Positions 11,275-63,685 of a DNA stretch of 64,000 nt are shown here, in pieces. How positions within the stretch are numbered: the first letter of the stretch is position 1; each line of letters opens with the position of its first letter. The position numbers were made by a program, and so were the translations under genes. Origin of the DNA: Sorangium aterium (lineage in GTDB: Bacteria > Myxococcota_A > Polyangia > Polyangiales > Polyangiaceae); contig NZ_JAQNDK010000001.1 of the NCBI RefSeq assembly GCF_028368935.1, positions 2,976,001 through 3,040,000 of the forward strand. Reading direction: 5' to 3'. The notes under the pieces were generated by a model. That model saw only the letters and a list, made by a program, of their open reading frames with translations, did not search any database and had not been told where the DNA came from.

Positions 11275-12789
11275 TCAATCGAGCTGGCGGCTCCTGGGCG
11301 ATGGGGGTGCCGCGGCTCCAGAGCGCGTCACCGCCCGCCTGCTCGGTGCGCCGCACTTACGAGGTAGCCCCGCCCGGACTCGAACCGGGACGCCCGCGAG
11401 GGCCGCGGATTTTAAATCCACCGCGTCTGCCATTTCGCCACGGGGCCATGTTGTTGATATTACTTTGATTTTTACTTTTGGGAGCCCACGCTCGCCTTCG
11501 TCTGTGCCGTTTCCTGTGCCGTTTCCGGCGAGCTCGGGGATCGCCTGGGCGAGGGAAGCTAGCTCGCCAAGGCCCAGCTCTGCAAACGTCCTGGCGGCTC
11601 GGCGGTATCTCTGGATCATCACGCTCGATCGATGGCCAGTTCTGTCGGCCACCCAGGTCTCGCTGCGGCCGTTCGCCAGGGCAACAGTGATGAAGGTTGA
11701 GCGCGTGTCGTGGGCGCGGACTTGCTGGCGCTCGTCAGAGTCCTCGAAGAGCTCTGGACGGTCGATACCGGCGAGTTGGAGGTGGGAGCGAAGTCGCTCG
11801 GCGGCGTGCTCGACGCTGAAGCGTTCGCCATCCTCGTTGACGAAAAGCGGGGCGGATGGTGATGGGTTGCCGCGGAGCGCGAGCCAGGCGCGCAGCGCCT
11901 GTGGCACGCCGGGCGAGAGTGCCCAGGCGCGGGGGTCGTTCGTCTTGTTCTTCTCGAGGCGCAACGCACCGCGATCGAGGTCGACGTCCTGCACCTGGAG
12001 GCGCGCCGCCTCGCTGATGCGCGGGCCTTCGCGGTTCAGGAAGCCCCAGAGGACGCGCCAGCACAGCGGGATCGCGGTGCTGGCCAGCAGGCGCGCGTCC
12101 TCGTCGGGGTAGAGACAGGCTTTCGCCTTCGCGGGGCCGAGCTTCGGGAGGAAGCCGCGGGGGAGCGGGTTGGTCGCGAGGAGACGGCACGGGAAGACGG
12201 CCATCGCCATGAGCCGGTGCAAGAGCTGCGCGATGTGACGGCGCGACGCGGGGGACATCGGCGGGAGCGCACACATGACACGCTCGGCGTCGTCAAGCGT
12301 GAAGGCCGCGACGGGGACGTGGCCGGCAATCGGGTAGATGTGGCGGTCGAAGCGGTAGACGTCCTGCTCCACGCTGCGCTTTGGCTTGACGTGGTCGGGG
12401 TACATGCGAGCGAGCTCGCCCGAGGTCCAGAGCTGGCCGAACTGCTGGATGCTGACCTGCTTCGGTACCGAGCTGCCGCCGGGGACGACCTTCGCTTGTG
12501 CGCCGCCCTTACAGATGACGTCGACCGCCGCGATGACGTCGCGGAGCGCCCTGCCCTCGTGTACCGCCGCACGCTCCAGCAGCGCAACGATCGCGTCGCG
12601 TGTGACGTTGGGCGAGGCGCGCAGCCGCACGGCCAGGTCGGCGACGAGCTCCTTGCGCTGCTCGGCCTGCTTCTCGGTCAGCTTAGGGTCGAGCGGGAAG
12701 CTCTCCCGGTCGTTGTCGCCGACGAGGACGCGGACGTAGAGCCGCCCAGCGTCGTTGCGGAAGAGCGATCCGGTGGGCTTGCGGGGCAT
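11275..12789 (-). CDS. Tyrosine recombinase (integrase) whose 3' end crosses tRNA-Leu
   Basis: A 504-residue phage-type integrase. The N-terminal region holds an arm-type segment (SLFRNDAGRLYVRVLVGDN) and a SAM-like core-binding domain. The catalytic domain shows the Arg I region GPRISEAARLQVQDVD, a beta-strand Lys (EKNKTN), the HxxR box HDTR, the second His in TGHRSSVMIQRY, and the nucleophile Tyr. I chose the ATG at 12789 over the longer frame to 12873. The last 57 or so codons are odd: codons about 448-475 are the tRNA-Leu sequence itself (reading RGEMADAVDL), and the stop lies beyond it. The attachment core is therefore inside the coding frame and the present tail is chromosomal. Myxophage Mx8 shows the same arrangement, with attP inside intP. 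Confidence 0.9.
   Translation of the reverse strand: MPRKPTGSLFRNDAGRLYVRVLVGDNDRESFPLDPKLTEKQAEQRKELVADLAVRLRASPNVTRDAIVALLERAAVHEGRALRDVIAAVDVICKGGAQAKVVPGGSSVPKQVSIQQFGQLWTSGELARMYPDHVKPKRSVEQDVYRFDRHIYPIAGHVPVAAFTLDDAERVMCALPPMSPASRRHIAQLLHRLMAMAVFPCRLLATNPLPRGFLPKLGPAKAKACLYPDEDARLLASTAIPLCWRVLWGFLNREGPRISEAARLQVQDVDLDRGALRLEKNKTNDPRAWALSPGVPQALRAWLALRGNPSPSAPLFVNEDGERFSVEHAAERLRSHLQLAGIDRPELFEDSDERQQVRAHDTRSTFITVALANGRSETWVADRTGHRSSVMIQRYRRAARTFAELGLGELASLAQAIPELAGNGTGNGTDEGERGLPKVKIKVISTTWPRGEMADAVDLKSAALAGVPVRVRAGLPRKCGAPSRRAVTRSGAAAPPSPRSRQLD
11365..11447 (-). tRNA. tRNA-Leu (anticodon UAA)
   Basis: Read on the minus strand, the 83-nt sequence folds as a class II tRNA. The acceptor stem is GGCCCCG with CGGGGCT (G1-U72 as in other leucine tRNAs), the D-arm is around GAAATGGCAGAC, the anticodon loop is ATTTAAAATC with UAA, there is a long variable arm GGCCCTCGCGGGC, and the T-arm is CCCGG-TTCGAGT-CCGGG. 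The discriminator is A, and CCA is not fully encoded. It is the integration target of the island; its 5' half is probably supplied by the element. Confidence 0.95.
11413..11447. repeat. Left attachment-site repeat, inside tRNA-Leu 5' half
   Basis: This segment matches 63295-63329 in the same orientation: 15 identical bases (TAAATCCACCGCGTC), one mismatch, 16 identical bases (GCCATTTCGCCACGGG), then a one-base gap. It covers the tRNA from anticodon loop to acceptor 5' strand and is the likely attL core. Confidence 0.82.
11448..11486 (-). promoter_or_regulatory. Candidate element-borne promoter for tRNA-Leu
   Basis: A strikingly AT-rich stretch lies directly 5' of the tRNA, inside the integrase frame. 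On the minus strand a -10-like TAATAT (11462-11457) ends 9 bases before the mature tRNA 5' end, with an A-rich spacer upstream and no good -35. Because integration replaces the 5' half of the tRNA, the element must bring or create a promoter; this is the best candidate. Confidence 0.45.
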
Positions 12790-13181
12790 GGTGCCCACTG
12801 TTCTACCGCGATTCGCGGCCGCGCTCACGCCTGGGGCGGCCCGCCGGCGTAAGGCGAGCGGGAGGCCGACCACATGGCGTCGACGATCGTCGGAAGCCGC
12901 GTGAATGTGGACCGGTCAACCCCCGGGTCCCGGGCTGCCGGTGGCGCGAGCCAGCGGGATCTCGCCTGTCGCGGGGGCGCAAGTCAGCGCCGCAGCCGCC
13001 GAGGAGTAGTTTCAGATGCCGGTCGCATCGACTGCGCCCACTGGCAACCCGTCCGTAGAACGAAGAAGATGGCGTCCATGGCCAAGCAATCGACCACGCG
13101 CGGGTTGTGCCAGCTGAGTGGGTGCGCTTTGCGCGGCGGCTGGATGGTTACCATCTCTACCCAGATGGTATCGGGGATACT
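12790..13181. other. Intergenic region upstream of integrase
   Basis: About 390 bp lie between the integrase start and the end of the next minus-strand gene. It should hold the integrase promoter. A short open frame on the plus strand has no convincing composition. The hairpin at 13149-13170 lies at its right edge. Confidence 0.4.
13149..13170 (-). terminator. Short hairpin after lipoprotein gene
   Basis: TACCATCT and AGATGGTA (8-bp arms, 6-base loop) lie 11 bp beyond the stop of the minus-strand lipoprotein gene. There is no T-run, so this is a weak terminator call. Confidence 0.35.
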
Positions 13182-27701: not shown

Positions 27702-28790
27702 TCATTCATTCTCCGCCGCGCCGTGCGCCAGCACCGTCTCTCCACCATCCTTGTCGAGCTCGATGAGCCGGCAGGGGGTCGCCTTCCGGATCCGCTCTGC
27801 CAGCGGGCGGGAGTGCGTCGTGATCCACAGCTGACTCCGGGATGCCGCGTGCACAAGGAGATCCCCGAGCGGCCCGAGCAGATCCGGATGCAGGCTCGTC
27901 TCCGGCTCGTTCAGCGCCAGCAGCAGCGGAGGCCTCGGGCTCAGCAGCGCGGCCAAGAGGCAGAGATAGCGCGCCGTGCCGTCCGAGAACTCGCGGGCGT
28001 CGAGCGGCCGCGACATCCCTGGCAACCCGAGCTCGACGCGGAACCGCCCCTGCGTCGAGGAGACATCGAGCGACGCACCAGGGAACGCGCTGGAGACGGC
28101 ATCCTTCAAGGCGCCCCTGTCGCCGATATCGAGGATCGTCGCCAGCGCCGCGGCCAGATCGTGGCCATCGGTGCTGAGCACCGGCGTCCGCACCCCGACC
28201 TGCTCCACCCGCAACGGCGCGCCGGAGTCGGTGCGGAAGTGGTGATAGAACCGGAAGTTCATCAGCTGTTGCCGCACCACCGAGAGCAACGGAAAGCGGT
28301 GCGGCTCCACCACCTGCGCCAGCACCGACTCCGAACCCCAGAGCGAGAAAGGAAAGGTCACGCGGTGACCGTCCGCGTCGCGCACGAAGGCCGAGCCCGC
28401 GGCCCGCTCCAGCATCGGCAGGCGGCGGCGCTTGTCGAGCAACCAGAGGCTCTCTTCCTTGATGTCCGGGTCCAACTGGAACGGCCCTCCAGGCGGCGGC
28501 GTGAGCCCGCACTGAAGCTCGTAGACAAGCTGATCCAGCCGCACCCGCAGCGTCATCCGCACCGGGCCCTTGCTGCGCCCGCCAGCCCAGAGCACCGAGG
28601 GCATCCCGCCCTCCTCGGCCAGGGTGCGCGCGAAGCTCCCGCTCGCCGCGGCGCCGAGCAGCACCATGGTGCGATAGAGATTGGTCTTGCCGACACCGTT
28701 CGGTCCGACGATGACATTGACCTGCGCGAGGGGGAGGGTCAGCTCGCGGATCGAGCGATATCCCGCGACGTGGAGCTCCTGGACCGTCAT
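27702..28790 (-). CDS. RecF/OLD-like AAA ATPase
   Basis: A 362-residue ATPase. Walker A is VGPNGVGKTNLYR near residues 29-41, directly after a short ABC-type N-terminal strand pair (LHVAGYRSIRELTLPLAQVN). The ABC-like signature region is EFSDGTARYLCLLAALL near 276-292, Walker B is LLLALNEPETSLHPDL (Glu in NEPE), and the H-loop is ITTHSRPLAERI. This is the AAA_21/OLD-type family without a TOPRIM nuclease. Related stand-alone ATPases appear in defence islands, but no partner nuclease is adjacent here. The unusual start (GGGCGGG then ATG at 28790) looks good. It is transcribed alone. Confidence 0.85.
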   Translation of the reverse strand: MTVQELHVAGYRSIRELTLPLAQVNVIVGPNGVGKTNLYRTMVLLGAAASGSFARTLAEEGGMPSVLWAGGRSKGPVRMTLRVRLDQLVYELQCGLTPPPGGPFQLDPDIKEESLWLLDKRRRLPMLERAAGSAFVRDADGHRVTFPFSLWGSESVLAQVVEPHRFPLLSVVRQQLMNFRFYHHFRTDSGAPLRVEQVGVRTPVLSTDGHDLAAALATILDIGDRGALKDAVSSAFPGASLDVSSTQGRFRVELGLPGMSRPLDAREFSDGTARYLCLLAALLSPRPPLLLALNEPETSLHPDLLGPLGDLLVHAASRSQLWITTHSRPLAERIRKATPCRLIELDKDGGETVLAHGAAENE

Positions 28791-29219
28791 CCCGCCCAGG
28801 ATAGCCCAGACGGGTTCGTTTCGGCATCGACCGACGGATTCCTTCCCCCGTGCGTAATAGGGCGGGCTGACCGTCAGGTTCCGGGAGATGCAGAACAGCG
28901 TGCCTCCCTCGGCCCCCTCTCGCCCCTGCCTGTTCACGTCTCTGCGCGACGGGCTGCGCTCGCACGCGACGTCGTGCAGCCCAAATCGCGCGGCGGCCAG
29001 CGCGCTCTCGCAGCGACCTGGACCGGCGGCCGGCGCCAGCAGGTGGACGAGCACTCGAGCCGCGCAGGCAGCTGCGGACGCTGCACGCTCTGGACGGAAC
29101 GATCCGCGTCCATTGTGGCCCTCTCGTCTGGATTCCGTTTGACGCCGGATCCCTATTATCAGAAGAATCGTCCGCGTCGCCACGTTGCTCGTCCGTTGTG
29201 GAGAGGGAAGAAGGGGACG
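28791..29219. other. Divergent intergenic region
   Basis: About 430 bp lie between the ATPase gene and the next plus-strand gene, with promoters for both presumably inside. The last 70 bp are AT-richer. I see no gene or repeat. Confidence 0.35.
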
Positions 29220-29675
29220 ATGGGCACAAGAAGCCGGCGGATCCCATGGGTGGTCCTGGTCGTCCCCCCGCTCGTCGTCGTACCGGCGCAGGGAGAGGCG
29301 TCCGAGTTGAGCGCCGGTGTGAGCCTCGGGTGGCTCCAGGCCGGTACCATTCCGCGCCTCGCGGTGGGACCGCATGCCGGCATGTCGTGGCCCATCCAGC
29401 GAGACATCCTGTTCACGGTGCACGACCTGTGCACGATCCTACCCCCGACCCAGGAGGACGGGCTCGGGGTCTACAACCAGACCTCGGTTGACATCGGGTA
29501 CGCGTGGAAGGACGGCAACGTCAGCGCGGGGCCGTCTGTCGCGCTCTACATCATGCCAGCGTGTGGCGTCACCTTGTGCGGCCGCGTCGGTGGCTTGGCC
29601 GTAGGCGCCCACGCGCTGACCAACGCGTACATCGCCGGACCACTGGGGGTGTCGGTGAGCGTCAACGTGGATTGA
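29220..29675 (+). CDS. Small exported hypothetical protein
   Basis: A 151-residue protein with a probable signal peptide (RRIPWVVLVVPPLVVVPAQGEA), then alternating strands (LSAGVSLGWLQAGTIPRLAV, NVSAGPSVALYIMP) that suggest a small outer-membrane beta structure. Two Cys pairs are present (DLCTI; ACGVTLCGR). No family is recognised. ATG at 29220 after a purine-rich AAGGGGACG. Confidence 0.55.
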   Translation: MGTRSRRIPWVVLVVPPLVVVPAQGEASELSAGVSLGWLQAGTIPRLAVGPHAGMSWPIQRDILFTVHDLCTILPPTQEDGLGVYNQTSVDIGYAWKDGNVSAGPSVALYIMPACGVTLCGRVGGLAVGAHALTNAYIAGPLGVSVSVNVD

Positions 29676-42282: not shown

Positions 42283-45200
42283 CTATTTAGACCCACGCTC
42301 CGCCTGGCCTCTAAGCACCAGCGTTGTGGCGTCAACACCTCGCTTTATCCTCAGAACGGGCGTTTGTTCCTCCGGGATTTGCTGGAGCTTCAGCTCGGTG
42401 CACGCGAGCCGGAACGCTCTCGTAACGGGTTCGTGGAACGCGAGCGCCTGGTAGAAGGAGACGGCGAACGCGATCGCCGCATCGTCGCCAATAGGCTGCC
42501 GCATGCCAACGGCGCACTCGACGTGCTGCACCAGCGCCCTGGCGAGCGGCTCGGTGTCGCAGGCATTGAGCACCACGAGCCGTAGGCGGTGCTTGAGAAT
42601 TCCGATCAGGTCGGCCAGTGCTTTCTTCGAGACAGGGGCGGCGTTCCCTTCGTCATCTTCGAGAAAGATCTGCCCGCGCGTGGAACCGTGGCTGGAAATG
42701 TGGAGCACGTGAGGCTTCTCTTCGAGGAGAAATCGCTGCAGCTCACTGCGCCGGACCGCCCATCGCGTCACGAGTTCAAAGGCGTCCCGGTGCTTGCCGA
42801 CCCCGAGTCGCTCCTCGATCCGCCGCACCTCGCGGGCGAGATGGAGTTGGGTCGTCGAAGTCGGATTGGAGGCGAGGACAAGGATCTTGATGCGGTCGTC
42901 GGCCGGCGGTCTGACCGGCTCCGTGGCGGTGGCGGCCGGGGCCGTAGGAGCTCCGGTGCCGCCGGCGGCCGTACCACGTAAGGCGCCGGTGACCGATGCG
43001 CTGAGGACGTGCGCCGTCCCGGGCGCGTCGCTCTTGGCGGGGCCCGGAGTGAGCACGCGGCGCTGCCTGCTCACCTCCTTCGCATCGCGTACCGCGGCGG
43101 AAGGCAAGTCGAACGGGCCGCGCGCTTCCGCCGAAGGGAAGATCCAGTCGATGACATGGAGACTGCCGGCTCCGTCGCCAACAACGAAGGTATAGCCGTC
43201 GGGAGCGACGGCGCAGCTCAGGAGAGGTGCGTGCGCTTCAAGCGTGGCGATGCAGCTACCGTCTGCGAGATCCCAGACTCGGAGAGTCGTGTCCTCCGAC
43301 ACGGAGACCACTGAGCGTCCGTCCGGTGTGACCGCCACCCCGGTCACGGTGCTGATGTGGCCCGTGAGAGTGTACGTTTCCCGCCCCGTCGCGAGGTCCC
43401 ATACCTTGAGCGTCTTGTCTTCTGACGCTGAGATGGCCAAACGACCATCCCGCGTCACCGCCACCCCGGTCACTCCCAACGTGTGGCCGGCAAGCGTGCG
43501 GACCTCACGGGTGCTCGACAGGTCCCACACTTTGAGCGTAGCGTCCTCGGAAGCGGACACGGCCAGACGACCATCCGACGTCACCGCCACTCCAGTCACT
43601 CCCAACGTGTGGCCGGCAAGGGTGCGAATCTCGCGGCCGCTCGACAGGTCCCAGATCTTGAGCGTGTTGTCCGACGAGGCGGAGACGATCCAGCGCCCGT
43701 CCGATATCACCGCCACCCCGGTCACGCTCCACGTATGACCGGCGAGCGTGCGGACCTCACGGCCGCTCGATAGCTTCCAAACCCTGAGCGTTTTGTCCTC
43801 CGACGCCGAAACCGCGAAGCGCCCGTCCGGTGTCACCGCGACCCGCATGACCAGGGAGGTATGTCCCGCCAGCGCGCGGACCTGAGCGCGGGTTGACAGC
43901 TCCCATACTTTAAGCGTTTTGTCCCAGGATGCCGAGACGGCGAGGCGACCGTCCGACGTCACCGCAACCCCGGGTACGGCGCCCGTGTGTCCTTCGTGCG
44001 CGCAGACCTCGCGCCCGCTCGACAGTTCCCACACCTTGAGCGTCTTGTCATGAGACGCCGAAATGGCGAGACGACCGTCCGGCGTCACCGCTACTTCCTT
44101 CACGGGCTCGGAATGCCCAGCGAGCGTATGGACTTCACGGCCGGTCGACAGTTCCCAGATCTTGAGCGTGTGGTCCGATGCTGAAATGGCGAGGCAACCG
44201 TCCGGCGTCACCGCAACCCCGGCCACCCAGCCGTCGCGACCGGCAAGCGTGCGGAGTTCACGGCCGCTCGACAGCTCCCATACTTTGAGCGTGCCGTCCG
44301 CCGATGCGGAGACCACGAGGCGCCCGTCGGGCGTCACCGCAACCTCCATTACCGAATCGGTATGGCCGGCGAGCGTGCGAACCTCGCGCCCGTTTGCGAG
44401 CTCCCACACCTTGAGTGTGCTGTCCTCCGAAGCTGAGATGACCAGGCGTCCCCCCGGCACCACGACCACCCCGTTCACAGGGAGAGCATGACCGGCGAGG
44501 GTGCGGACCTCACGCCCGTTTACGATCTCCCACACCTTGAGCGTGCTATCCGCCGACGCGGAGATGGCGAAGCGCCCGTCCGGCGTCACTGCCACTCCGT
44601 ACACCGAAGAAGCGTGGCCGACGAGCGTGTGGCGCTCACGCCCGTTTGCGAGCTCCCACACCTTAAGCGTGCCGTCCTCCGACGCGGAGACGGCGAGGCG
44701 CCCATCCGGCGTTACCGCTACGCCATTTACCTCGGAAGCGTGACCGGCCAGCGTGCGGAGCTCGCAGCCGGTCGATATCTCCCACACCTTGAGCGTGCCG
44801 TCGTGAGAAGCGGAAATTGCCGAGCGCCCGTCCGGCATCACCGCGACGCCCCACACCGAGGAGGTGTGGCCCGCCAGCGTCCGCATCAGCGCGTCGGATT
44901 CCCGACTGGTGCGGAGCCGCTCGCGAAGCCACGTCCACCTCCGAGCCTTCAGCGTTATCTCGGCCTGCTCCTGCACTTCTTCGAGCCCCAGCTCGAAGCT
45001 GACGTTGCGGACCTGCTGTAAGAAGAAGCCGGGTTCCCGCGTCGGATCCCAGCGGCGCAAGCAGTGCGCCTCCCGATCCAGCGGGCGCAGCAACCGCTGG
45101 AACCTCTCCCGCCCTTCCGCTCCCGCGAGTTCTTCTCCGAGCCTCAGATCTGCGAGCACGGCGTCCAGCCCCCGGGCCCGGACCTCAGCGTCGAGCCGCC

Positions 45201-46584
45201 CCGCCTCGCCGAGCGCCTCGCCGAGCTGCCTCGCGCACACCGCGGCAAACGCCTCGCGCTGCTCGATCCGCGCCGCGGCGAACTCCCGCACAAGCGGGTG
45301 CAGCCGAATCGCCTTCTGCGTCAGCTCTTCCACAAGCGACCACTCTGAGAGTTCGTTCAGCGCCAGCTCGAGCGGCGCCGGATAGCCATCCTTCGCCTCG
45401 TCCGAGAGTCCGGTGAGGTGCGCGAGCGTCGCCCGCGACACGTGCGCCGCGTTGCGAAGCAACGCCGCCACCTTCAGCGCGTGCCGTGCCTCAGATGTCG
45501 CAAGCGCATCCCACTGAGCTCGCAGCGTCGCCTCTACCACGGCGGCGTGCTGTGTCGCCAGTCGGAGTGAATCCACCTTGGCGGTGTCGGTCGTTGTCAG
45601 CCCACCTTCCCGGCGCAGCCGCTGGAGGTAATCGGAGAGCGCGAGACCCGGTGACTTGCCGAGGTACGCGGCCGCCAGGACGATCGCCAGCGGAAGGTGG
45701 CCCAACGCGCCGCAAATCGCTCGCGCCGCCTGAATCTCATCCGCGCGACCGCCTTCGAGGAGCGACCGTCGCGCCTTGCTTGAGAGGAGCAGACGGAGGG
45801 CAGCGTCCTCGCTGAGCACGCCGACGGAGGCGGTCTCGAAAGGGGCATCAAAATCGCGCCGACGGGTGGTGAAGAGCAGGTCGCAAGGCAGCTCCCATGG
45901 GATGATGCCGGCCGTAGGCTCACGTAGCGAGAGCGGCTCTGCGACGTTATCGAGGATCACAAGCGCGCCCGGATGCTCCTGAAGGTATCGCTCGAACGCA
46001 CGCAAGCGCTGCACCGGGCGCTCCGCCTCCGAGGGGGTGTCCTCGCGAAGCCCCAGCCTCTCGGCGAGGGCTCCGAGTTCGGCCACGAGGGGTGCTGCCG
46101 CATTCACCCAGTAAACGCCGCCTGGGTAGTCGCTCCGGCGGCGGTGGGCATACTCGACGGCGAGCTGGGTCTTGCCAACGCCGCCCATCCCGACGAGCGC
46201 CACGCGCCGGACGCCGGTGGTGCCGTTTTTCAGGAGCCGGTTGAGACGCTCGAGATCGGCATCGCGACCGACGAATTCCGGATCCATTGCAAAGGGCACC
46301 AGGAAGGGCGCCCTTTGCTCCGCGAAATCGCGGAGCACGGGGTTGTCGCGATTCCTCCGGCGAGCCTCTTCGAGCAGCCGCTCGAGCTTGCCTCGCGCCT
46401 TCGCCCACTTGAGAACCTCAAAGACCGCCGCCTGCAAGTTGGTCTCGGACGCGATCGCATCGAGGTCCTCATTGAGGCCGAACAAGATCAACCGTTCGAA
46501 CTCGACGCGAGACGGGAACGCGTCGAGTAGCGCCTCCTGGAAGCTCTCCAACCGCGCACCGTCCCACTTCCCCGTCGTCCCCAT
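42283..46584 (-). CDS. NLR-like STAND protein: EAD1, NB-ARC, 14 WD40 repeats, CHAT protease
   Basis: A 1433-residue protein. Domains in order: EAD1-type effector-associated domain (residues about 8-95; FQEALLDAFPSRVEFERLIL, VFEVLKWAKARGKLERLLEE); NB-ARC ATPase with Walker A GMGGVGKTQ (132-140), Walker B ALVILDN (207-213) and LPLA motif (297-300); a winged-helix/helical region to about 560; 14 WD40 repeats (about 570-1165) in near-identical 126-bp DNA units; and a CHAT caspase-like protease (1231-1433) with catalytic His1299 (HISSHG) and Cys1342 (NACDT). Such proteins sense an invader or damage signal, oligomerise and switch on a protease. ATG at 46584 preferred; a GTG at 46668 overlapping the upstream stop (GTGA) would add 28 Arg-rich residues. 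Last gene of the operon. Confidence 0.9.
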   Translation of the reverse strand: MGTTGKWDGARLESFQEALLDAFPSRVEFERLILFGLNEDLDAIASETNLQAAVFEVLKWAKARGKLERLLEEARRRNRDNPVLRDFAEQRAPFLVPFAMDPEFVGRDADLERLNRLLKNGTTGVRRVALVGMGGVGKTQLAVEYAHRRRSDYPGGVYWVNAAAPLVAELGALAERLGLREDTPSEAERPVQRLRAFERYLQEHPGALVILDNVAEPLSLREPTAGIIPWELPCDLLFTTRRRDFDAPFETASVGVLSEDAALRLLLSSKARRSLLEGGRADEIQAARAICGALGHLPLAIVLAAAYLGKSPGLALSDYLQRLRREGGLTTTDTAKVDSLRLATQHAAVVEATLRAQWDALATSEARHALKVAALLRNAAHVSRATLAHLTGLSDEAKDGYPAPLELALNELSEWSLVEELTQKAIRLHPLVREFAAARIEQREAFAAVCARQLGEALGEAGRLDAEVRARGLDAVLADLRLGEELAGAEGRERFQRLLRPLDREAHCLRRWDPTREPGFFLQQVRNVSFELGLEEVQEQAEITLKARRWTWLRERLRTSRESDALMRTLAGHTSSVWGVAVMPDGRSAISASHDGTLKVWEISTGCELRTLAGHASEVNGVAVTPDGRLAVSASEDGTLKVWELANGRERHTLVGHASSVYGVAVTPDGRFAISASADSTLKVWEIVNGREVRTLAGHALPVNGVVVVPGGRLVISASEDSTLKVWELANGREVRTLAGHTDSVMEVAVTPDGRLVVSASADGTLKVWELSSGRELRTLAGRDGWVAGVAVTPDGCLAISASDHTLKIWELSTGREVHTLAGHSEPVKEVAVTPDGRLAISASHDKTLKVWELSSGREVCAHEGHTGAVPGVAVTSDGRLAVSASWDKTLKVWELSTRAQVRALAGHTSLVMRVAVTPDGRFAVSASEDKTLRVWKLSSGREVRTLAGHTWSVTGVAVISDGRWIVSASSDNTLKIWDLSSGREIRTLAGHTLGVTGVAVTSDGRLAVSASEDATLKVWDLSSTREVRTLAGHTLGVTGVAVTRDGRLAISASEDKTLKVWDLATGRETYTLTGHISTVTGVAVTPDGRSVVSVSEDTTLRVWDLADGSCIATLEAHAPLLSCAVAPDGYTFVVGDGAGSLHVIDWIFPSAEARGPFDLPSAAVRDAKEVSRQRRVLTPGPAKSDAPGTAHVLSASVTGALRGTAAGGTGAPTAPAATATEPVRPPADDRIKILVLASNPTSTTQLHLAREVRRIEERLGVGKHRDAFELVTRWAVRRSELQRFLLEEKPHVLHISSHGSTRGQIFLEDDEGNAAPVSKKALADLIGILKHRLRLVVLNACDTEPLARALVQHVECAVGMRQPIGDDAAIAFAVSFYQALAFHEPVTRAFRLACTELKLQQIPEEQTPVLRIKRGVDATTLVLRGQAERGSK

Positions 46585-46664
46585 GAGCACCTTCGCCAGA
46601 TCGTTCCGCCGAGGCTCGCCGCGCCGTCGCCGGCAGAGCCCACCTTCCCTCACCGCGGCCGCCC

Positions 46665-49600
46665 TCACTCGAGACGAGCGCGCGAGGCCGCGGCGCGCCG
46701 GAGGACTTCCGCCTCATCGGGAGGCGACGCGGGGTGGTGCGAGAGACAGAGCGGCACTGCGATTTTGGTCGGCGCTGGCATCCCCTTGCCGGCCAGGTAG
46801 AAGCGTCCGGAGGCTAGCCGTGCCACATCGACCTTGGTGGCGCCACGCACACGGAGCTGCTCCTCCACCGTGTCGATCGCCGCCGGCGAACTCGCCTTCC
46901 CATAGAACTGGGTGCTCGCGTTGGCGATCACGTTGTGATCGATGCTCTTCGGCGCCTGGGTGGCGAACACCACGCCGAGCCCGTACTTGCGCCCCTGCGC
47001 GACCAGGCGGATCAGGCTCTCCTTGCAGGGGGTCGAGCCCTGAGAGGGCACGAAGTCCTTCGCCTCGTCGATGACCAGCAGACCGCGGAGCGGCCGGTCG
47101 CTGGGACAAGGGTTCTTCTTCACCCACGTGAAGAGAGCCATGGCGAGCTGGTTGACGAACTGGAGCGGCGCATCGAGGCCCGGCAGGCCCACCAGGCTGA
47201 GAACGGAGACACGAGCGCGTGCAGAACCCAAGCCGAAGAGGATGCCGGGATCGAGCGGCTCGCCCTCCTGATGGAGGAGGGGATTCGTCTGCACGGCAGC
47301 GCGCAGCGAATCGCAGAGGGCTGTCGCGACCTTCCTGGCGGTGGAGATCTTGAGGCTGGCCTCCTCGGGCAAGTCTCCGAGCAGGTCGAGGAAGGAGGTG
47401 AGGTCGCCGCCACCTTGCTGCGCGAAGACGCGGAGCGCGGAATCGAGGATAGCGCGCGCCTTATCGTCGGTCCTCTTGCCAGCCATCGCCGCCAGCGTGG
47501 ACGCCGTCATCGCGACCGTCTGCGTGAACTCGTCAGGCTCGTGCGCGACGGCGGCGAAGTCAGGGAGCAATCCCAGGTACAAGGGGTTGCCGTTCGACCG
47601 CCCGGGCGTCCACACGATCACGTCCGTCTGTGCGTGGTAGCGGGCGGCCTTCTCGGTGTCCTCGTCCGTGAACGACGTGGGGCGCACGGGCCATGGCTCG
47701 CCTAGTCGGGCGAGATCGTTGGCACCGTCGACGACGATGGACGGGATGCGGAGCAGCGCGGCCTCCTCAATGAGCCGCCGGAGCAGCACTGTCTTGCCCG
47801 AGCCGGCGCCGGCGAGCACGACCACATGCTGTCTGAGATCCTCGGCGAAGAGCATCTGCGATGCGGCTAACCGCTCGCCAATGACCTGATGGCCGACAGC
47901 GATCACGGGCCTTGCCGCCGGGGTCGGCGCGGGTGCGGGCGATGCGGACGCCGGGTGGGGAGCGTGCGCGGTCGCCTGACGCACCGTCGAGGTCGGCGTG
48001 GGTGCGGGCACGGGCGACGCGGGGATCGGGTTGGGAGCCTGCACGGGCGACGGCGAGGGCTCCGCCTGCGGCGGAGAGGCAACGGGCGCCGTGGTCTGCG
48101 GAGAGCGCCCGAGCCAGTCGACCACGGGCTTCATCAGGGCGAGCTGCGAGGCGGGACGGCGCGCACGCAGCCACTGGTCGAAGGTCTCGCGCTTATCCCC
48201 CTGTGCTTCGCGCAGCCTGGCGAGCGCGACCAGAGCGCGGAGGTCGTCGTCGCTCGCCGGGATCAGCTCGGCTCCTGCTGTTCGCGCCTTGGTCATGAGC
48301 GCGGTCGTCTTGGCGCCGCCCGGCACCGGCGCGTTGCGCACGAGGAGCAGCTTGCGGAACTCGAGCTGGCGATCGATTCCCGACGCGGTCACGGCCGCGG
48401 TGAGCCGCGCCTGAAAAGCGATGGCATTGTCCTTCCATAGGGCGCGCAGGCAGAGGTGCCGCTCGCGGTCGTGCTGGGCGGTGAAGATCTGGCGCACGCG
48501 CGCGTGGAGGGCCGGGTAGCCGCGTCCCCCGCCGCTCTCGGCGTCAATCGAGAGGTGCACGGAGGGATCGTGCGCCTGCTCGGTGACCACGAGCTCGCAG
48601 CCAGTGAGCAGGAGCTTCCCCAGCTCGTCCTCACCATCCGTGGCGGGCGTGTCCTTGGGGACCTTGACCGACGTGCGGAGGCGCTCGAGCTGCGTGTCGA
48701 GCGCTTCGAACTCGGGGCGATGAGGTACGGCCGTCGGGTTCCGCGGTGGCTCCGTGCCCGAGAACGTGGCGAGCACGCTCACCCATCCGTCGTCGACGCA
48801 CTTGCGACGGTGCTGCTCGCAGCGGAGGAGGAGTTCGCGGGGCGACTTCCCGGTCGCCGTGACGAACGCCGAAGGCGCAAACGGCCACCGAGGATACGGC
48901 GGCGTGAAGCCGATGCGTGAATAGCTCGGGTCCAGACGCGCGCTCACGATCTGCTCTGCCGTGACTGCGTCGCGCAAGTTATGGAGCGGGCGCTGATCTT
49001 CGTAGCGATGCGTCGACGACTTGAGCGCGGTGTCCTTGAGCTTGCTCCACGTCTCCTGCAGGCAGGAGACCACCGCCAGCGCGCGGCGCGTCACGTCGCG
49101 CAGCTCCATCAGCCCGCGGCCCACGCTGTCGATGATGCTGCGCGAGACGAGCTGTCGAGCGGTGTACTCTCCAGGCAGGTCGCTCGCCGTGGCGAGCACG
49201 TGGTGCTCGGTCACGATCGCGTCGAGCTGATCGAGGGCCACGACCATCGGGCATCGCAGGCTAATCAGCCACGAGAGGCCCTCGACGACGGCGCTTGGCC
49301 TCTTCTCGCGGATGTTGAAGCCGAACACCTCCATGGCGCTCTCGTCGACGCCGTAGCCCTGAAGCCAGGCGTATCCGAGGTTCGACAGCTCCATGTCGTT
49401 GGAGTTGAGCAGCACCAATGCGCGGAGCGTGTCGGCGTGCTTCAGCGTCTGGGCCCTGTGCGTGCGTCCGAGACGCTGCACCAGCTCATCCATCTCCCGG
49501 GCGAGCCTAGGCGGGCGAAGCGACGCGAGCTCGTGGGTCAGGGCGGCACCGTCGTCGCCTCGCGCCTGCGCGGCGATGTGCTGGACGACGAGCTGCGCTT

Positions 49601-49961
49601 GGGTGCGGTCCGTCGCGTCGGCAGGTCTCTGGAGAGAGTCGATGAAGCCTAGGAGCGCCGTCTCCCAGAAATCGCGGACGTCGCTCATGTCGACCAGGAT
49701 GAAGCTCGCCGGCACGCCTAGGACCTCGCGCCGGATCGCGGACAGCAAGTGCGTCTTGCCGATGCCCGCGGGGCCGACGAACACCCAGCCGAGCGGCGAG
49801 CCCGTCTCCGTGCTCGCGGTCATCGACCGGACCTTGGCAAGCACCGCCTGCCGCTCCTTCTGGTGGAGCGAGGGGACGTCGTAGCGCGGGTCGTGCCAGA
49901 CGCTGTCCATGCTCTGCGTCCACTGGAAATCGACCGCTTCGAACGCACTTAACGCATCCAT
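46665..49961 (-). CDS. Fused ORC-like AAA and HerA-type ATPase
   Basis: A 1098-residue protein with two ATPase modules. Module 1 (residues about 30-400): Walker A GPAGIGKTH (63-71), Walker B VVALDQLD (240-247), with an ORC/Cdc6/STAND-like layout. A helical middle (400-610) follows, then a Pro/Ala linker (about 615-690). Module 2 (about 700-1080): HerA/FtsK-type, Walker A GAGSGKTV (718-725), Walker B LLVIDEAKD (961-969), and VVFATQAPKSID as a sensor-like block. HerA proteins are hexameric DNA-translocating ATPases that partner with nucleases. The start at 49961 has GAGGGG upstream and lies 4 bp after the preceding stop. The 3' end overlaps or nearly touches the NLR-like gene, so all are co-transcribed. 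Confidence 0.85.
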   Translation of the reverse strand: MDALSAFEAVDFQWTQSMDSVWHDPRYDVPSLHQKERQAVLAKVRSMTASTETGSPLGWVFVGPAGIGKTHLLSAIRREVLGVPASFILVDMSDVRDFWETALLGFIDSLQRPADATDRTQAQLVVQHIAAQARGDDGAALTHELASLRPPRLAREMDELVQRLGRTHRAQTLKHADTLRALVLLNSNDMELSNLGYAWLQGYGVDESAMEVFGFNIREKRPSAVVEGLSWLISLRCPMVVALDQLDAIVTEHHVLATASDLPGEYTARQLVSRSIIDSVGRGLMELRDVTRRALAVVSCLQETWSKLKDTALKSSTHRYEDQRPLHNLRDAVTAEQIVSARLDPSYSRIGFTPPYPRWPFAPSAFVTATGKSPRELLLRCEQHRRKCVDDGWVSVLATFSGTEPPRNPTAVPHRPEFEALDTQLERLRTSVKVPKDTPATDGEDELGKLLLTGCELVVTEQAHDPSVHLSIDAESGGGRGYPALHARVRQIFTAQHDRERHLCLRALWKDNAIAFQARLTAAVTASGIDRQLEFRKLLLVRNAPVPGGAKTTALMTKARTAGAELIPASDDDLRALVALARLREAQGDKRETFDQWLRARRPASQLALMKPVVDWLGRSPQTTAPVASPPQAEPSPSPVQAPNPIPASPVPAPTPTSTVRQATAHAPHPASASPAPAPTPAARPVIAVGHQVIGERLAASQMLFAEDLRQHVVVLAGAGSGKTVLLRRLIEEAALLRIPSIVVDGANDLARLGEPWPVRPTSFTDEDTEKAARYHAQTDVIVWTPGRSNGNPLYLGLLPDFAAVAHEPDEFTQTVAMTASTLAAMAGKRTDDKARAILDSALRVFAQQGGGDLTSFLDLLGDLPEEASLKISTARKVATALCDSLRAAVQTNPLLHQEGEPLDPGILFGLGSARARVSVLSLVGLPGLDAPLQFVNQLAMALFTWVKKNPCPSDRPLRGLLVIDEAKDFVPSQGSTPCKESLIRLVAQGRKYGLGVVFATQAPKSIDHNVIANASTQFYGKASSPAAIDTVEEQLRVRGATKVDVARLASGRFYLAGKGMPAPTKIAVPLCLSHHPASPPDEAEVLRRAAASRARLE

Positions 49962-49965
49962 CGGG

Positions 49966-50781
49966 TCACCCCTCGATACAAAGCAGATCACGTCGTTCGC
50001 CGGAGACCCGGAGCGCCGCGGCATCGTCCTCCGGGCGGATCCGCTGCGGGTCGTCGATCGGGTAGAGCACCGCGCCGCCCTTCTCCTGCATTCCGCGGAG
50101 CACCGCATCGACGGCCTCGACCTGCTCGTCTCGGAGCTGCGCGCGGAGGAGGGCGAGCCTGACGTACTGGTTGAGGGCCCCTCCCGTCACGTGCAAGTAC
50201 GCGGCCCGGATCCGATCCTCGAGAGCGGCAGGAGCGGCTTCGCCGGGCGCGGTCGGAGCGCCTTCGCCCGGTGCCGGTCCGGTCTGAGGCGCGACCGCTG
50301 TCGAGGCTACCCCGTCTTGTTCCTTGTCGGCCGGCCGCGGTCGCATCAGGTGGGCGAGTGCGAGGTTGTGGTACTCTAGGTAAGCGCCAACCTTCGCAAG
50401 GAGCGCCGCGAGCACGGGCGCCGCGGCTTTGGTCTGCGAGAGGCGCGCCCCGAGTCCCTGGTGGTTCGCCCACTCCCACCCCGCGTCCGTAACGTGGAGC
50501 TTCGACCCCCACGTTGGGTCCTTCTTCCGTGGGCCCTTCTCGACCGTGATCAGGCGGGCGCTCTCCAGTCCCTTCACCTCGGACCTATCGAGCTCGACGG
50601 AGCGTTGGCTGGCGGTCTTCCCGTCGCCCATGATGACGAGCTCCCACAACGCGAGCGCCTGCTTCCCCGTCAGCCCTCCGTTCGCTTCCCGCGCGTCGAC
50701 GCTTTTTTTTCGCTTCTTGGGCGCGCGACTTGTTCGTTTCCTGGTCGAGAGGTGCTTCTGCCCGTTGTCCTTTGTCGTCAT
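49966..50781 (-). CDS. Operon protein with winged-helix-like middle, unknown function
   Basis: A 271-residue protein with a Lys/Arg-rich N-terminus (RKRTSRAPKKRKK), then a probable winged-helix segment (residues about 35-105; GLTGKQALALWELVIMGDGK, ESARLITVEKGPRKKDPTWG, LHVTDAGWEWANHQG). A Pro/Ala linker follows, then a C-terminal helical domain (LEDRIRAAYLHVTGGALNQY, VRLALLRAQLRDEQVEAVDA). It could bind DNA and bridge the nuclease-ATPase pair to the HerA-type motor, but the family is not recognised. ATG at 50781, tightly coupled to the next gene. Confidence 0.65.
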   Translation of the reverse strand: MTTKDNGQKHLSTRKRTSRAPKKRKKSVDAREANGGLTGKQALALWELVIMGDGKTASQRSVELDRSEVKGLESARLITVEKGPRKKDPTWGSKLHVTDAGWEWANHQGLGARLSQTKAAAPVLAALLAKVGAYLEYHNLALAHLMRPRPADKEQDGVASTAVAPQTGPAPGEGAPTAPGEAAPAALEDRIRAAYLHVTGGALNQYVRLALLRAQLRDEQVEAVDAVLRGMQEKGGAVLYPIDDPQRIRPEDDAAALRVSGERRDLLCIEG

Positions 50782-51015: not shown

Positions 51016-54000
51016 TCAGAGCGCGCGGTGCTCGGCCAGCGCCTCAGGCGCTGGCGGCGGCCTCTCTCGTAGCCGGTCGAGGTCCACCGAGTACTCCGCC
51101 TGGAACCGCGCGAACCGATCGGGATGGCACGTGAGCAGGATGATCTGCAGCTCGCTGGCAGCGTCCCGGAGGATCTGCACCATCGACAGGAACCTTCCGT
51201 CGTCGGTCCATCCCATCGTATCATCCAGGATGAGCGGGAGCGGCCGCTTGTCCTTCGCCATCACGCGAGCGAGGCTCAGGCGGACGATCACCGAGAGCTG
51301 CTCGCGCGTGCCACCGGAGAGCTGGCCGAAGTCCTCCTCCGTGCCGCGGCGCAAGACTTTATCAAGCTTGAGATCCCGTGTCATCCGGATCTCAGTCCCC
51401 GGGCGCAGTTTGGAGAGGTACGGCGACGCCTCCTTCAGCACGGGCGCGAGGAAGAGGCGCTGCGACTCGGCATAGGCGTCTTCCACGACCGTGGACAGGA
51501 GGCGGGCGGCGCGGGCCTCGCGCTCGATCCGCGCGAGCGCTTCGGCGGCGTCAAGCTGCTCCACCTGCGCTGCCCCGAGCTCCTCGAAGTGCCCCTCCAC
51601 GGCGGCCTGGTCGAGCAGCGTCTTCCGTTGCAGCATCTTGTCGTGCAGGTCGGCGATACGCTGGCGGTGCGAATCGATGGCTCCCTTGGCGCGCAGCACC
51701 TCACCGCGGAGCAGAACAGGGGCCGCCTCCTCGAGCTCGGCTGCAGCGCTCCGAGCGCTCACCAGCGCCTGTTCGAGCTCCCACTGTGCCGTCGTGTTCC
51801 GCTGCCAGAGGTTCGTGTCCGGCACGATCTCCCGCAGGGCGGCGAGCTTGTCGGTCACAACGTGAAGCCGGGCGACCTTCTCATGACGAACGGCCGCGGC
51901 CTCACCAAGAGAGCTCTCCAGCACGCGAAGCTCTCGTTCTGATCGATCCGCGGCCTCCGCCGCGCGCTCCGCGTTGGCCTCCCGCGTGCGCACCTCCTCA
52001 CGCCCCTCGTCTATCGCGGTCTGCAGCGCGGCGAGGTCTGCTGGCACCTCCTCGCCAGCGGTCGCGGAGTGTGCCGCCTCGGCATTCCCGAACGCTGCGG
52101 CACGCGAGCGCAATGCGTCCAGCCCGTCCGGCGCCAAGCTCCTGAGCTGCTTGCGGAGCTCGGCGATCTGCACATCCAACGCCAATCGGGCGCGGAACCG
52201 CGCCTTCGCGGCATCGAGGTCGGCCACGTCCGCCCGCTCCAGCGCCTCGCGGAAGCGCCGCTCGAGCCCGTCGACGTCGAGCCCGCTACCAAGCTCTCCG
52301 GGGATGATCTCCCAGGTGAGGTTCTGCACCGTCTCGGGTCGCACGGCTCGCGTCACCGCCCACTCGCGCCGGGGACCCGCGGCGACCGGGCCGGTGATGG
52401 CACGAACGCGAGCCTGTAGCCTCTCGATCGCCATCTCTGCGTCGCCCAGCTCACGCTCGAGCGTCGCGAGCCGTGCGAGCGCGTCTCCGGTGACGCGGTT
52501 CTGCGAGAGCTCGACCTCGATCTGCGCGTGACGCGCAAAAGCGCTCCTCGCGTCAGCGAGGGCCGTCTCGGCGGCTAGGCTCTGGGCGCGAACCTCCGCC
52601 ACCTCGGCACGGAGCGTCTGGACCCCCCGTGGGGCCACCTCGACGAGACGCTCCTCCGCCTGCTTCCGGGCCGCGTCGAGCCGGACCCAAGCGCGGGCCG
52701 CCTCCGTCGCGTCCGCCACGGTGCCGATCCCGAGACCCTGGAGGGTTGCCGCGAGGTCGCGCTCGGCGCGGTCGAGCCTGGCCCGCGATTCGGCGAGGTC
52801 CTCGCCGCGCGGTTCGAGCTTAATCTCCGCGACTTCGTCGAGGACCACGGTCGTGCCCCGCGTCAAGGTGAACGCCGTGCGCTGGCCCGTGATCAGCCGT
52901 TGCGATACCTCCTCACCCCCGGCGCGAATGCGCAGATCGGTGAGCGCGAGCATCTCCATGCGCGTGCCGATCGCGTCGCAGGCGGCGCGCAGGATGGCCA
53001 CGTCCTGTTCTCGTTGCCGGAGCCCGTCCATCGCCGCCTCATCGAGGCGGTTGGCCGCGAGGCCGCGCAGGCTCGCCTCGCGCTCCCGGTCCGCCCGCGT
53101 GGCCTCGTCGAGCGCGGACTCGAGCCGCGCGCGCTCAGCATGGTGCTCTCTCACCTCCTGTTCGAGCGCATCCAGTCCCTTCGGGGCCAGCCTCCTCATC
53201 TCAGTGCCGAGCGCCGCCTCCTCACGCTCGGCCTGGATCCGCACCGAATGACGCGCCCGCGCCGCCGGCACGTCCGCGACGCCGAGCGCGAGGAGCGCCT
53301 CCTCGAGCTTCGTCCGCCGCTTCTCCGCATCCGCAAGCGCCTGCGCGAGACCGGGGCGAGCCGGTTCGATCTCGAGCATGCCGAGCCCAGGTACGTCGAT
53401 CGTCGCCGGACATCCGGCCGAGCGGATGATCGCTTCTCCCTCGGCCGGGAACACGACGATGCGGGTTCCATCGGCATCGAGTCGAGCGCGGAGGGCGGCC
53501 GTCTTCGCAGCGAGGCATTCGAGCTGCTCGCACACGCGCTCGTCGATCGTCTCCGTCTCCAGGCGGCGCGTTGCCTCGGCGATGTCGTCGTCCACCTCTT
53601 CGGCCGCTCGCAGGTCCTTGGCTGCACGGGCGGCCTCGTCGCGCCGGCGTGCCCGGTCGAGGTCATCCGTCGCGGTGTGCAGTGCCGCCCGCGCCTCGAG
53701 GACCGCCGTCCTCGCTTGGCCGGCGACATCGCGGGCAGCGGCCGCCGCCTGCTTCGCGTCCTCCAATGTCTGCGACAGCTCGCCGGTGGCCTCATCGATC
53801 CTTTTGATCGCCGCATCGAGCTGCTCTGCCTCGCGCGCCAGCGATGCGCGGGCGTCGACCTCTTGCTGAACCGCCTGGACCACCGCCCTGGCCGCCGCAA
53901 CGCGCGACTCGGCCTGGCGCAAGAGGCCCTCGAGCTGGTTCAAGCGGTGCTCCGCGGCGACTGCGTCGGAGTGCTCCCGCTCGAGTCCCGGGAGCTTGTG

Positions 54001-54765
54001 CTCGGCCTCGCGCAGCTGCTGGCAGAGCGCCCGGTGCTCCGCCGCCAGGCTCTCCACCGCAGCCCTCGCCTCCTCGATCTTCTTCACGCGAGCGTTGGCC
54101 GCCTTCAGCTTCTCCTCGGCTGACCGGTATTCGCCCGTCGTCGTGCCGGTCCTGTGTGTGAAATAGCGCGCGGCATGCTCGAGCACCCGTGTGCGCACCC
54201 GCTCGCCATGCTTGCCGCCCAGCACCTGTCCGACCTGCCTGCCGATGGTTTCGGAGAGCGTACCCCGCACGGTCTCGTCGAGGACATCGCCGGGATCGGT
54301 GTAAGCCGTCTCGTCCTGTGCGACCCACAGGAGCCCCCACAGCCCCATGTCGCTCCGCGTGCTCCCAGTCCTGCCTGGGCGCCGCCCGTCGAGCCGCGCC
54401 AGCAGGAGATCTTCCGCGTCCGCGCCGTGCACGACCGTACCCTCGCGGTGCAGGCGCACCTCGGCGAAGCGATTTTCGATGAATCGCTTGTGCACGCTGA
54501 CGCGTTCGCCGCCGATATCCAGCTCGACCCAGATCTCGGGAGCGTTGCGCGTACCGTGCGTCTGGAGGGCTCTGATCTTCTGGTTCTTGGCGTCGTGCCG
54601 CTCGAAGAGCGCCGCCCGCAGGGCCTCGACGAGCGTAGACTTGCCTGCCTCGTTCCGGCCGCTGATCACGTTGATTCCGCCAGCGAAGGGCCCCACATCG
54701 AGGCGCTCGGTGAGAGCGCCGACATGCTGCACCGAGAGACGGACGAGCTTGATCCCGTGGTTCAT
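51016..54765 (-). CDS. Rad50/YhaN-like SMC-type ATPase
   Basis: A 1249-residue ATPase with Walker A GRNEAGKST (36-44, the YhaN/SbcC form), long heptad-rich coiled coils between, ABC signature LSGGTREQ (1149-1156), Walker B LPLILDD (about 1177-1183) and H-loop LLTCHPDR. No CxxC zinc hook is present: the only close Cys pair is Cys-(4)-Cys. Instead two beta-rich insertions interrupt the coils (DGTRIVVFPAEGEAIIRSAG near the middle and QRTAFTLTRGTTVVLDEVAE later). It resembles B. subtilis YhaN, which pairs with the Mre11-like YhaO. Its ATG overlaps the nuclease stop (ATGA at 54765-54762). Confidence 0.87.
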   Translation of the reverse strand: MNHGIKLVRLSVQHVGALTERLDVGPFAGGINVISGRNEAGKSTLVEALRAALFERHDAKNQKIRALQTHGTRNAPEIWVELDIGGERVSVHKRFIENRFAEVRLHREGTVVHGADAEDLLLARLDGRRPGRTGSTRSDMGLWGLLWVAQDETAYTDPGDVLDETVRGTLSETIGRQVGQVLGGKHGERVRTRVLEHAARYFTHRTGTTTGEYRSAEEKLKAANARVKKIEEARAAVESLAAEHRALCQQLREAEHKLPGLEREHSDAVAAEHRLNQLEGLLRQAESRVAAARAVVQAVQQEVDARASLAREAEQLDAAIKRIDEATGELSQTLEDAKQAAAAARDVAGQARTAVLEARAALHTATDDLDRARRRDEAARAAKDLRAAEEVDDDIAEATRRLETETIDERVCEQLECLAAKTAALRARLDADGTRIVVFPAEGEAIIRSAGCPATIDVPGLGMLEIEPARPGLAQALADAEKRRTKLEEALLALGVADVPAARARHSVRIQAEREEAALGTEMRRLAPKGLDALEQEVREHHAERARLESALDEATRADREREASLRGLAANRLDEAAMDGLRQREQDVAILRAACDAIGTRMEMLALTDLRIRAGGEEVSQRLITGQRTAFTLTRGTTVVLDEVAEIKLEPRGEDLAESRARLDRAERDLAATLQGLGIGTVADATEAARAWVRLDAARKQAEERLVEVAPRGVQTLRAEVAEVRAQSLAAETALADARSAFARHAQIEVELSQNRVTGDALARLATLERELGDAEMAIERLQARVRAITGPVAAGPRREWAVTRAVRPETVQNLTWEIIPGELGSGLDVDGLERRFREALERADVADLDAAKARFRARLALDVQIAELRKQLRSLAPDGLDALRSRAAAFGNAEAAHSATAGEEVPADLAALQTAIDEGREEVRTREANAERAAEAADRSERELRVLESSLGEAAAVRHEKVARLHVVTDKLAALREIVPDTNLWQRNTTAQWELEQALVSARSAAAELEEAAPVLLRGEVLRAKGAIDSHRQRIADLHDKMLQRKTLLDQAAVEGHFEELGAAQVEQLDAAEALARIEREARAARLLSTVVEDAYAESQRLFLAPVLKEASPYLSKLRPGTEIRMTRDLKLDKVLRRGTEEDFGQLSGGTREQLSVIVRLSLARVMAKDKRPLPLILDDTMGWTDDGRFLSMVQILRDAASELQIILLTCHPDRFARFQAEYSVDLDRLRERPPPAPEALAEHRAL

Positions 54766-62915: not shown

Positions 62916-63212
62916 TCACCGCCCCCTCCGCTCGCGCTCGCGAGCAAGGTCGAGCACTTCGGCCGCAGCCTCGCGCTGGGATTGCGTCAGCCCTCCGAGC
63001 AGCCGCCCGATCGCCTCATGCGCTACGCGCGCCGTCTCTACATCCCCCGCCACAATAGCCGCCGCCAGCCCCTCCCCGAGCTGCACAAGCAGCGTCGTCC
63101 TCACCGACGCCGCCCTCGCCCCCACCCCTTCCCCCCAACGCTCTTCCCCCGCCCCGCCTACCCCGATCGAATCGCCACGCGCCCCCTCCGAATCGCCACA
63201 CCCTCGCTCCAA
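62916..63212 (-). CDS. Small helical protein
   Basis: A 98-residue frame. The first 35 residues are Gly/Glu-rich and doubtful. The rest (VQLGEGLAAAIVAGDVETAR, VAHEAIGRLLGGLTQSQREA, AAEVLDLARERERRGR) is a helical, repeat-like domain of a small protein family; a relic of its C-terminus occurs at 41626-41703. Last island gene before the right repeat. Confidence 0.5.
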   Translation of the reverse strand: MERGCGDSEGARGDSIGVGGAGEERWGEGVGARAASVRTTLLVQLGEGLAAAIVAGDVETARVAHEAIGRLLGGLTQSQREAAAEVLDLARERERRGR

Positions 63213-63294
63213 CCGCGTCGATCCGTCGCCGCCCCCTCCGATTTCCCAAGCGATTTTGCCGGTTCGCCCCGTTCCCCCGCCCCAGAGCGCCTTC

Positions 63295-63329
63295 TAAATC
63301 CACCGCGTCCGCCATTTCGCCACGGGCCA
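63295..63329. repeat. Right attachment-site repeat (tRNA-Leu 5'-half copy)
   Basis: Second copy of the tRNA-derived repeat, same orientation as 11413-11447, with one mismatch and one deleted G in the acceptor stem, so it could not function as part of a tRNA. On the minus strand it reads RGEMADAVDL in a frame that stays open to 63016. Confidence 0.8.
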
Positions 63330-63330
63330 A

Positions 63331-63534
63331 GAGGAGGCGCTGCGCCACTTCCTCGCGAACACGACGCACGACGTGATGACCTCGCTGACCGTGCTGCGAC
63401 ACCTCGCGACGCTCCGGCAGCGCGCGGCCGACGGCGGGCCTGTCGAGCAGTCCGGCCCGCGCGACGCTCGAACGCTCGAACGCCCGAGCGCAGGCGTGCA
63501 GGAATGCTGCTGCTGCTCGACCCGCCGACGATGA
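63331..63534 (+). pseudogene. Histidine-kinase HisKA fragment at the island edge
   Basis: Plus-strand frame EEALRHFLANTTHDVMTSLT followed by VLRHLATLR, a recognisable HisKA dimerisation segment (phospho-His in the HDVM motif). No sensor domain precedes it and no ATPase domain follows; the frame ends in junk at 63534. The fragment begins within two bases of the right repeat. Confidence 0.6.
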
Positions 63535-63685
63535 GATGCGCCGCGCGCCGTGCGCCGGCGCCGCAGTCACACATAGATCGCGAAATTGCCGCGCGCTCTT
63601 CACACAAGAGAGCGTACTGAAATGTGAGGCGATTCATGGTGCCGAGGCGAGCCATGGCCGGGAGCGGTTGTCGGGGAGCACGATC
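63535..63685. other. Short gap before DUF2169 gene
   Basis: Spacer holding the promoter of the next gene; no other feature seen. Confidence 0.35.

Follow-up and report, generated by a model that had tools for sequence, protein, structure and literature searches.

An integrase gene of Sorangium with its attachment core inside the reading frame, and a conserved helical domain that integration would detach

The stretch of Sorangium aterium DNA analysed here (64,000 nucleotides; the window) contains a 51.9-kb segment bounded by two tRNA-derived core copies, and the integrase gene (int) at one end of this segment runs on the minus strand through the core and the adjoining tRNA gene without meeting a stop. 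The locus thus raises the question of whether the free and the integrated element encode integrases with different C-terminal ends, as a first-pass annotation of the window had proposed, and whether such an exchange could set the direction of recombination, which in tyrosine integrases is usually credited to separate factors. We have followed the int frame on both sides of the core, in the window and in related elements.

The integrated element and its integrase gene

The window lies in a host genome of 13.5 Mb (G000); the features on which the argument rests are collected in Table 1. The int reading frame as listed has 532 codons from a GTG start, and comparison with L298 makes the ATG at 12789 the likelier start. 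The PF00589 profile scores 67.1 bits against the product (cut-off 27.1), which identifies it as a tyrosine integrase, and by eye we spotted what we take to be the HxxR, GH and Y of this enzyme class. The catalytic domain ends at 11593 and the core starts at 11444, so that the domain is kept whole and the attachment core lies within the int frame. A complete tRNA-Leu(UAA) gene adjoins int on the same strand, and the coordinates of ORF, tRNA and core bear out that the frame is free of stops across both. The part beyond the core comes to 45 codons (11412 down to 11278, with the stop at 11275-11277), in agreement with the earlier statement that about 45 codons at the end of int are host-derived.

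Table 1. Coordinates of the features discussed, in the window unless a genome is named
Feature	Position	Strand	Basis
int gene in integrated form: tyrosine integrase with host-encoded end	11275..12873	(-)	ORF and domain match
Phage_integrase catalytic domain, residues 269-427, entirely on the element side of the core	11593..12069	(-)	profile match
tRNA-Leu(UAA), integration target; 5' half inside the core	11363..11447	(-)	tRNA match
att core, int side; int reads part of RGEMADAVDL here	11413..11444	(-)	repeat comparison
Host-side tail of the integrated form: tRNA 3' half and flank, 45 codons and stop	11275..11412	(-)	ORF
att core, far end of the element, one mismatch	63295..63326	(-)	repeat comparison
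92 codons and stop read by the int frame in the predicted circle; frameshifted relative to sister elements	63016..63294	(-)	frame reading
Conserved C-terminal tail domain and stop; frame +1 to the int frame	62916..63125	(-)	frame reading
Linker stretch; compared with So ce26 and So0157-2, one base missing at either end	63236..63271	(-)	alignment
Large ORFs scanned as cargo	27702-29423, 42283-46668, 46665-50108, 51016-55572, 60804-62423
tRNA-Leu(UAA) hotspot (L055-L060)	So0157-2 about 10.24-10.46 Mb; So ce26 about 10.14-10.24 Mb

We also looked in other Sorangium genomes for an empty attachment site, and none was found: relatives of the outermost right flank (63441-64000) sit elsewhere in other Sorangium genomes, away from tRNA-Leu(UAA); in So ce26 the match (93%) is near 1.96 Mb. 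Two members of the genus are without an int match at 1e-40 (G102 and G104): in G102 remnants of int adjoin its tRNA, and the stretch in G104 has no tRNA.

In the selection of large ORFs that was scanned, the cargo of the element resembles a defence island. It includes an AAA_21 ATPase whose best PADLOC match is HEC-01A (E 5e-46), a WD40 protein next to an ATPase that matches mad8 (E 1e-26), an SMC-like protein with a match to LmuB (E 3e-16) and a DUF6119 protein (Pfam E 1.5e-152). Elsewhere in the genome, G000:C1:2410981-2414946 (L217) holds fourteen tRNA matches in 4 kb, some of them low-scoring; this array is possibly of phage or plasmid origin.

The predicted circular frame and natural int-core-tail junctions

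The two core copies of the window agree over 32 bases with one mismatch, and the G-run that follows the core differs between them; their offset of 51,882 is a multiple of 3. In the predicted circle the int frame reads RGEMADAVDL and continues with EGALGRGNGANRQNRLGNR to a stop at 63016, which gives 92 codons past the core and 579 in total. The proposal that the frame would stay open to this point is therefore borne out, as a bare open frame. Openness of this kind is common in the window, where a run of 45 codons without a stop occurs in 56.6% of random frames and one of 92 codons in 36.7%; the corresponding figures around the right core are 37% and 12%. In the window alone the open int frame is not above chance, and it becomes significant only when relatives are included.

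Such relatives are found in So ce26 and So0157-2, where related int copies and core copies lie in series at the same tRNA-Leu(UAA) gene, and where at the internal junctions of the series int, core and element end are contiguous, as expected in the circle. In So ce26 (L059, L052), int residues 131-480, the core and a tail of 126 residues share a frame that is open for 684 codons; since int is frameshifted further upstream, this gene is itself not intact. The tail in So0157-2 (L057) has the same length and stop, and int is damaged there, as are the other internal int copies of this genome. At a third junction, G448:C20, a complete int enters the core and the tail is off by one frame. No intact full-length int-core-tail gene was seen. 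The tRNA-Leu(UAA) gene itself is a hotspot (L055-L060), with several int copies, many of them broken, and cores in series over 100-220 kb.

What So ce26 and So0157-2 encode after the core, in the int frame, is a conserved helical domain at the end of the tail (LLVQLGEGLAAAIVAGDVESARVAHEAIGRLLG...LDLARERERRGR), which is also present in the window. The core can be read in more than one way: int L010 of So0157-2 reads it as LAPWRNGRRGGFK, while the window and So ce26 (with one change) read RGEMADAVDL. Tail L056 is in the LAPWRNGRRGGFK frame and tails L057 and L059 are in the RGEMADAVDL frame; two sister elements hence use the same tRNA core in different frames, with each tail matching its own. 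Estimates of dN/dS, made from few changes (10 synonymous and 12 not, for the linker), are 0.40 in the int frame of the L059/L057 linker against 2.6 and 3.0 in the other frames, and 0.58 in the own frame of the L059/L057 tail domain against 2.6 and 1.1. For the window domain compared with L059 the value is 0.38 in the domain frame against 1.5 and 0.9, and for int it is 0.18.

In the window, the conserved domain stands outside the int frame because its linker is short of two single bases, one next to 63270 and one next to 63236, relative to So ce26 and So0157-2; the frame of the domain is closed upstream by a stop at the core end. The indels had at first given the impression that the tail was unconserved in the window, and the domain was found on reading the other frames. 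With two bases missing, the 92-residue tail of the first-pass annotation is therefore not the conserved one, and by comparison with the relatives it is probably not the free-form tail that evolved. In relatives the element-side tail is in frame and conserved, whereas in the window the domain is out of frame and a non-conserved frame of 92 codons is open. A frameshift across the core, which the annotation had named as speaking against its reading, is thus present for the conserved tail and absent for the bare open frame. The broader idea that free and integrated forms carry different tails, as in the myxophage Mx8, fares better: there is good support for a C-terminal exchange, both across the family and in this int gene, and it is the exact 92-codon free tail that does not hold. 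The window copy is intact in its integrated form, and it has probably decayed on the tail side, because its free form would bear a frameshifted tail.

Integrase and tail ends across the family

In the 108 genomes of the family, int has 116 matches in 49 genomes, of which 81 with a 3' flank, chosen by hand, were used. A tRNA lies within 300 nt of int in 44 of the 81 and is absent in 37. In the 44 it begins 2-239 nt past the end of the int homology, in both orientations, and the targets include tRNAs for Leu, Lys, Ser, Cys, Arg, Phe and Ala. Of the 44 int frames, 40 enter the adjacent tRNA and 30 cross it, with a stop before the tRNA in the other 4; at the same 44 places the two other frames enter in 25 and 19 cases and cross in 9 each (Fisher p = 1e-7 for crossing, relatedness ignored). 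Relatedness was handled solely by counting one int per genome or per genus, on the int side only, which gives 20, 8 and 5 crossings of 30 (int frame, then the other frames) and 14, 6 and 3 of 19, respectively. The host-side tails vary in length and sequence among homologous integrases. A search of a phage collection with int returned one match, Virus Rctr16k (54% over 63% of the query), and no relative was found among the viral contigs searched.

The tail domain, conserved, helical and about 65 residues long, occurs at the far end of elements. At E<=0.01 it was found in 26 of the 108 family genomes. Across the phylum, with only 16 candidates per genome scored, 16 of 377 genomes had it at E<=1e-4, and all 16 are labelled own, same family or same order. 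AlphaFold models of the tail alone (two sequences) have three helices, H3-26, H29-43 and H50-68 (pLDDT 85, pTM 0.55), while the model of the fused So ce26 frame, built from one sequence, is poor (pLDDT 38). When the tail model was compared with the PDB by Foldseek, no structure reached E<=0.001; the tail sequence is without a Pfam match at E<=1, and the 126-residue tail is unmatched in PHROG. A role in multimerisation or in DNA-arm contact would be a guess.

Among 104 distinct tail copies in the loci examined, a subset of the genomic matches, a tRNA fragment lies at most 500 nt upstream of the domain in 27, and downstream in 0 of 77; 77 of the 104 are without a recognisable fragment. In G000, one of 33 tails has a clear fragment, namely that of the window. 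For 37 of 135 tails (131 from the family-genome search and 4 others) an int lies within 100 kb. Tail and nearest int share a strand in 32 of the 37 and lie on opposite strands in 5; the 32 are made up of 23 at the far side, 5 directly downstream and 4 others. G000 also has about two dozen copies of a short tail form, ...TDRTPSEGVGPTRAQ...PSPRAAVVASLA...VHEAIGRLLGLPVAPEG (L200, L202, L205, L206 and L210 are examples), with no tRNA fragment upstream. An int at C7:106837 of this genome and the neighbouring fused copy agree up to SPER(S/P)SRN and then diverge, which suggests that the short form uses another core.

The many copies without a tRNA fragment would fit a tail domain that is encoded independently of the integrase, by a small gene with its own start at the end of the element. 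The window offers a GTG at 63125, after a GGAAGGG stretch, as a possible start codon; this GTG recurs in L059, and the window domain has persisted although it is out of frame with the core. In L057, however, the GTG is replaced by GAG, as judged by eye, the changes between L059 and L057 mark the stretch from core to domain as coding in the int frame, and the frame of the domain is open through the tRNA fragment in 20 of 27 copies, against 8 and 6 for the other frames. We regard a separate gene as quite unlikely.

If domain and integrase are instead read together, their frames should be in step across the core. Pairs were sought in genomes with both kinds of locus sampled, and the resulting rows are not independent. 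In 11 same-genome rows that share at least 45 bp, the frames agree in 9. Four of these rows are best set aside on inspection: the contiguous junctions of So ce26, which agrees, and G448:C20, which differs; G000:C7 L002/L200, which agrees through a shared stretch of int linker; and So0157-2 L010 vs L057, which differs and where the tail is further along the series. The other seven all agree (G088, G006, G109, G017, G046, G100 (L010/L056) and G119), and their targets are tRNA-His, tRNA-Leu(CAA) twice, tRNA-Leu(UAG), tRNA-Leu(UAA) and tRNA-Phe, with a core in G088 that has no tRNA match; in G006 and G046 the two ends are on different contigs and are presumed to belong to one element. With shared stretches of at least 18 bp, 21 of 28 rows agree (22 are listed as agreeing; the window row, which contains a gap, is scored as a mismatch). 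That int and tail keep step in this manner is the best single argument that the two would be read as one. The family element in G088:C150 (L257, L082) has a 74-bp shared stretch without a tRNA match; by eye, its antisense strand resembles what is presumably the end of a multicopper oxidase.

Two further explanations have to be weighed against these pairs. The junctions in the window and in G448:C20 are both one frame off, in the same direction, as would be the case if a +1 frameshift in translation joined int and tail in elements like that of the window. Only these two cases are seen, however, a stop at the core end closes the tail frame in the window, and the frames already agree in most pairs that share a long stretch; indels in a variable linker are a simpler account. 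A programmed frameshift was thus given little weight, and we find it highly improbable. It could also be that int reads into the tRNA simply because the GC content is high and tRNA genes are poor in stops, with an integrase complete before the core and a tail under no selection. Long open frames are indeed common in the window, the host-side tails differ in length and sequence, and the window's own tail is frameshifted; but at these positions the remaining frames are open much less often, and the tail domain is conserved and keeps to the int frame in the majority of pairs that share a long stretch. We consider a mere by-product unlikely. The element-side tail appears to be a real and detachable domain, because in relatives the frames are open through the tRNA, the domain is conserved, the frames agree and So ce26 has a single frame.

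Proposed exchange of the integrase end and known systems

The layout, the shared cores, the agreeing frames, the conserved domain and the int-core-tail junctions in tandem arrays are seen directly in the sequence. The best explanation, and in our view a likely one, is that the attachment core lies inside int and that integration swaps the end of int and detaches the helical domain. In the circle the gene would then consist of the catalytic part, a linker, the tRNA-derived core, a second linker and the small helical C-terminal domain. Integration at the core would cut the gene there, so that the catalytic part would acquire an end read from the rest of the tRNA gene and the host flank, and the helical domain would be stranded at the far end of the element without a catalytic part; excision would restore the long form. 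We infer that the two forms would both be translated, the long one in the service of integration; the tail-less one, which as reported for Mx8 may recombine less or with other sites, would steady the integrated state. By analogy with Mx8, tail exchange may thereby control the direction of recombination. A wider proposal is about as likely as not. In it, the integrases of a Polyangiales lineage have, beyond attP, a conserved helical domain that can be detached, and in the chromosome a peptide from the tRNA gene in its stead; the shape of the enzyme would report whether the element is free or integrated and act as a direction switch, over many tRNA targets and with the frame kept in step.

Several known systems share parts of this arrangement. 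In archaeal suicidal integrases of the SSV type the recombination site likewise lies within the integrase gene, and integration is described as splitting it into two inactive parts (PMC8371274); the catalytic domain is severed there, whereas it is whole in the window int. The same source states that self-gene-disrupting recombinases are exclusively archaeal. Streptococcal ICEs that integrate into rumA are reported to exchange 3' ends reciprocally between integrase and target gene (PMC4701971), as proposed here, but with a serine recombinase and a protein-gene target, and with an exchange that alters the frame. In a pleolipovirus, a reading frame across attP is described as complete only in the circle (PMC7911831); there it belongs to a separate gene downstream of int and not to the integrase itself. 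In the open-licence literature we found no prior description of the conserved tail domain or of its family-wide breadth.

The principle of an exchanged int end is already known from phage Mx8. Its attP lies inside the integrase gene and integration creates a new int 3' end (IntP/IntX; PMC6070905), a C-terminus of 112 residues being replaced by 13 residues in a product reported to be less active (PMC4701971); in the Islander work, the integrases of Mx8 and SSV are described as extending across attP (PMC4383910). Mx8 Int is a distant sequence relative (25% over 371 residues, E 3e-12); its gene has the best tRNA matches where the frame reads GLEPVL. With the one profile tried, its tail does not match the tail domain (best stretch -2.6 bits). 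Mx8 comes from another order and is a single phage, whereas here there are many elements and many tRNA targets. If our reading is true, it would explain the tRNA-encoded peptide ends on integrases of Polyangiales, make the tail domain a marker for the far ends of integrative elements, and extend the single-phage case of Mx8 to a comparative system over many tRNA targets.
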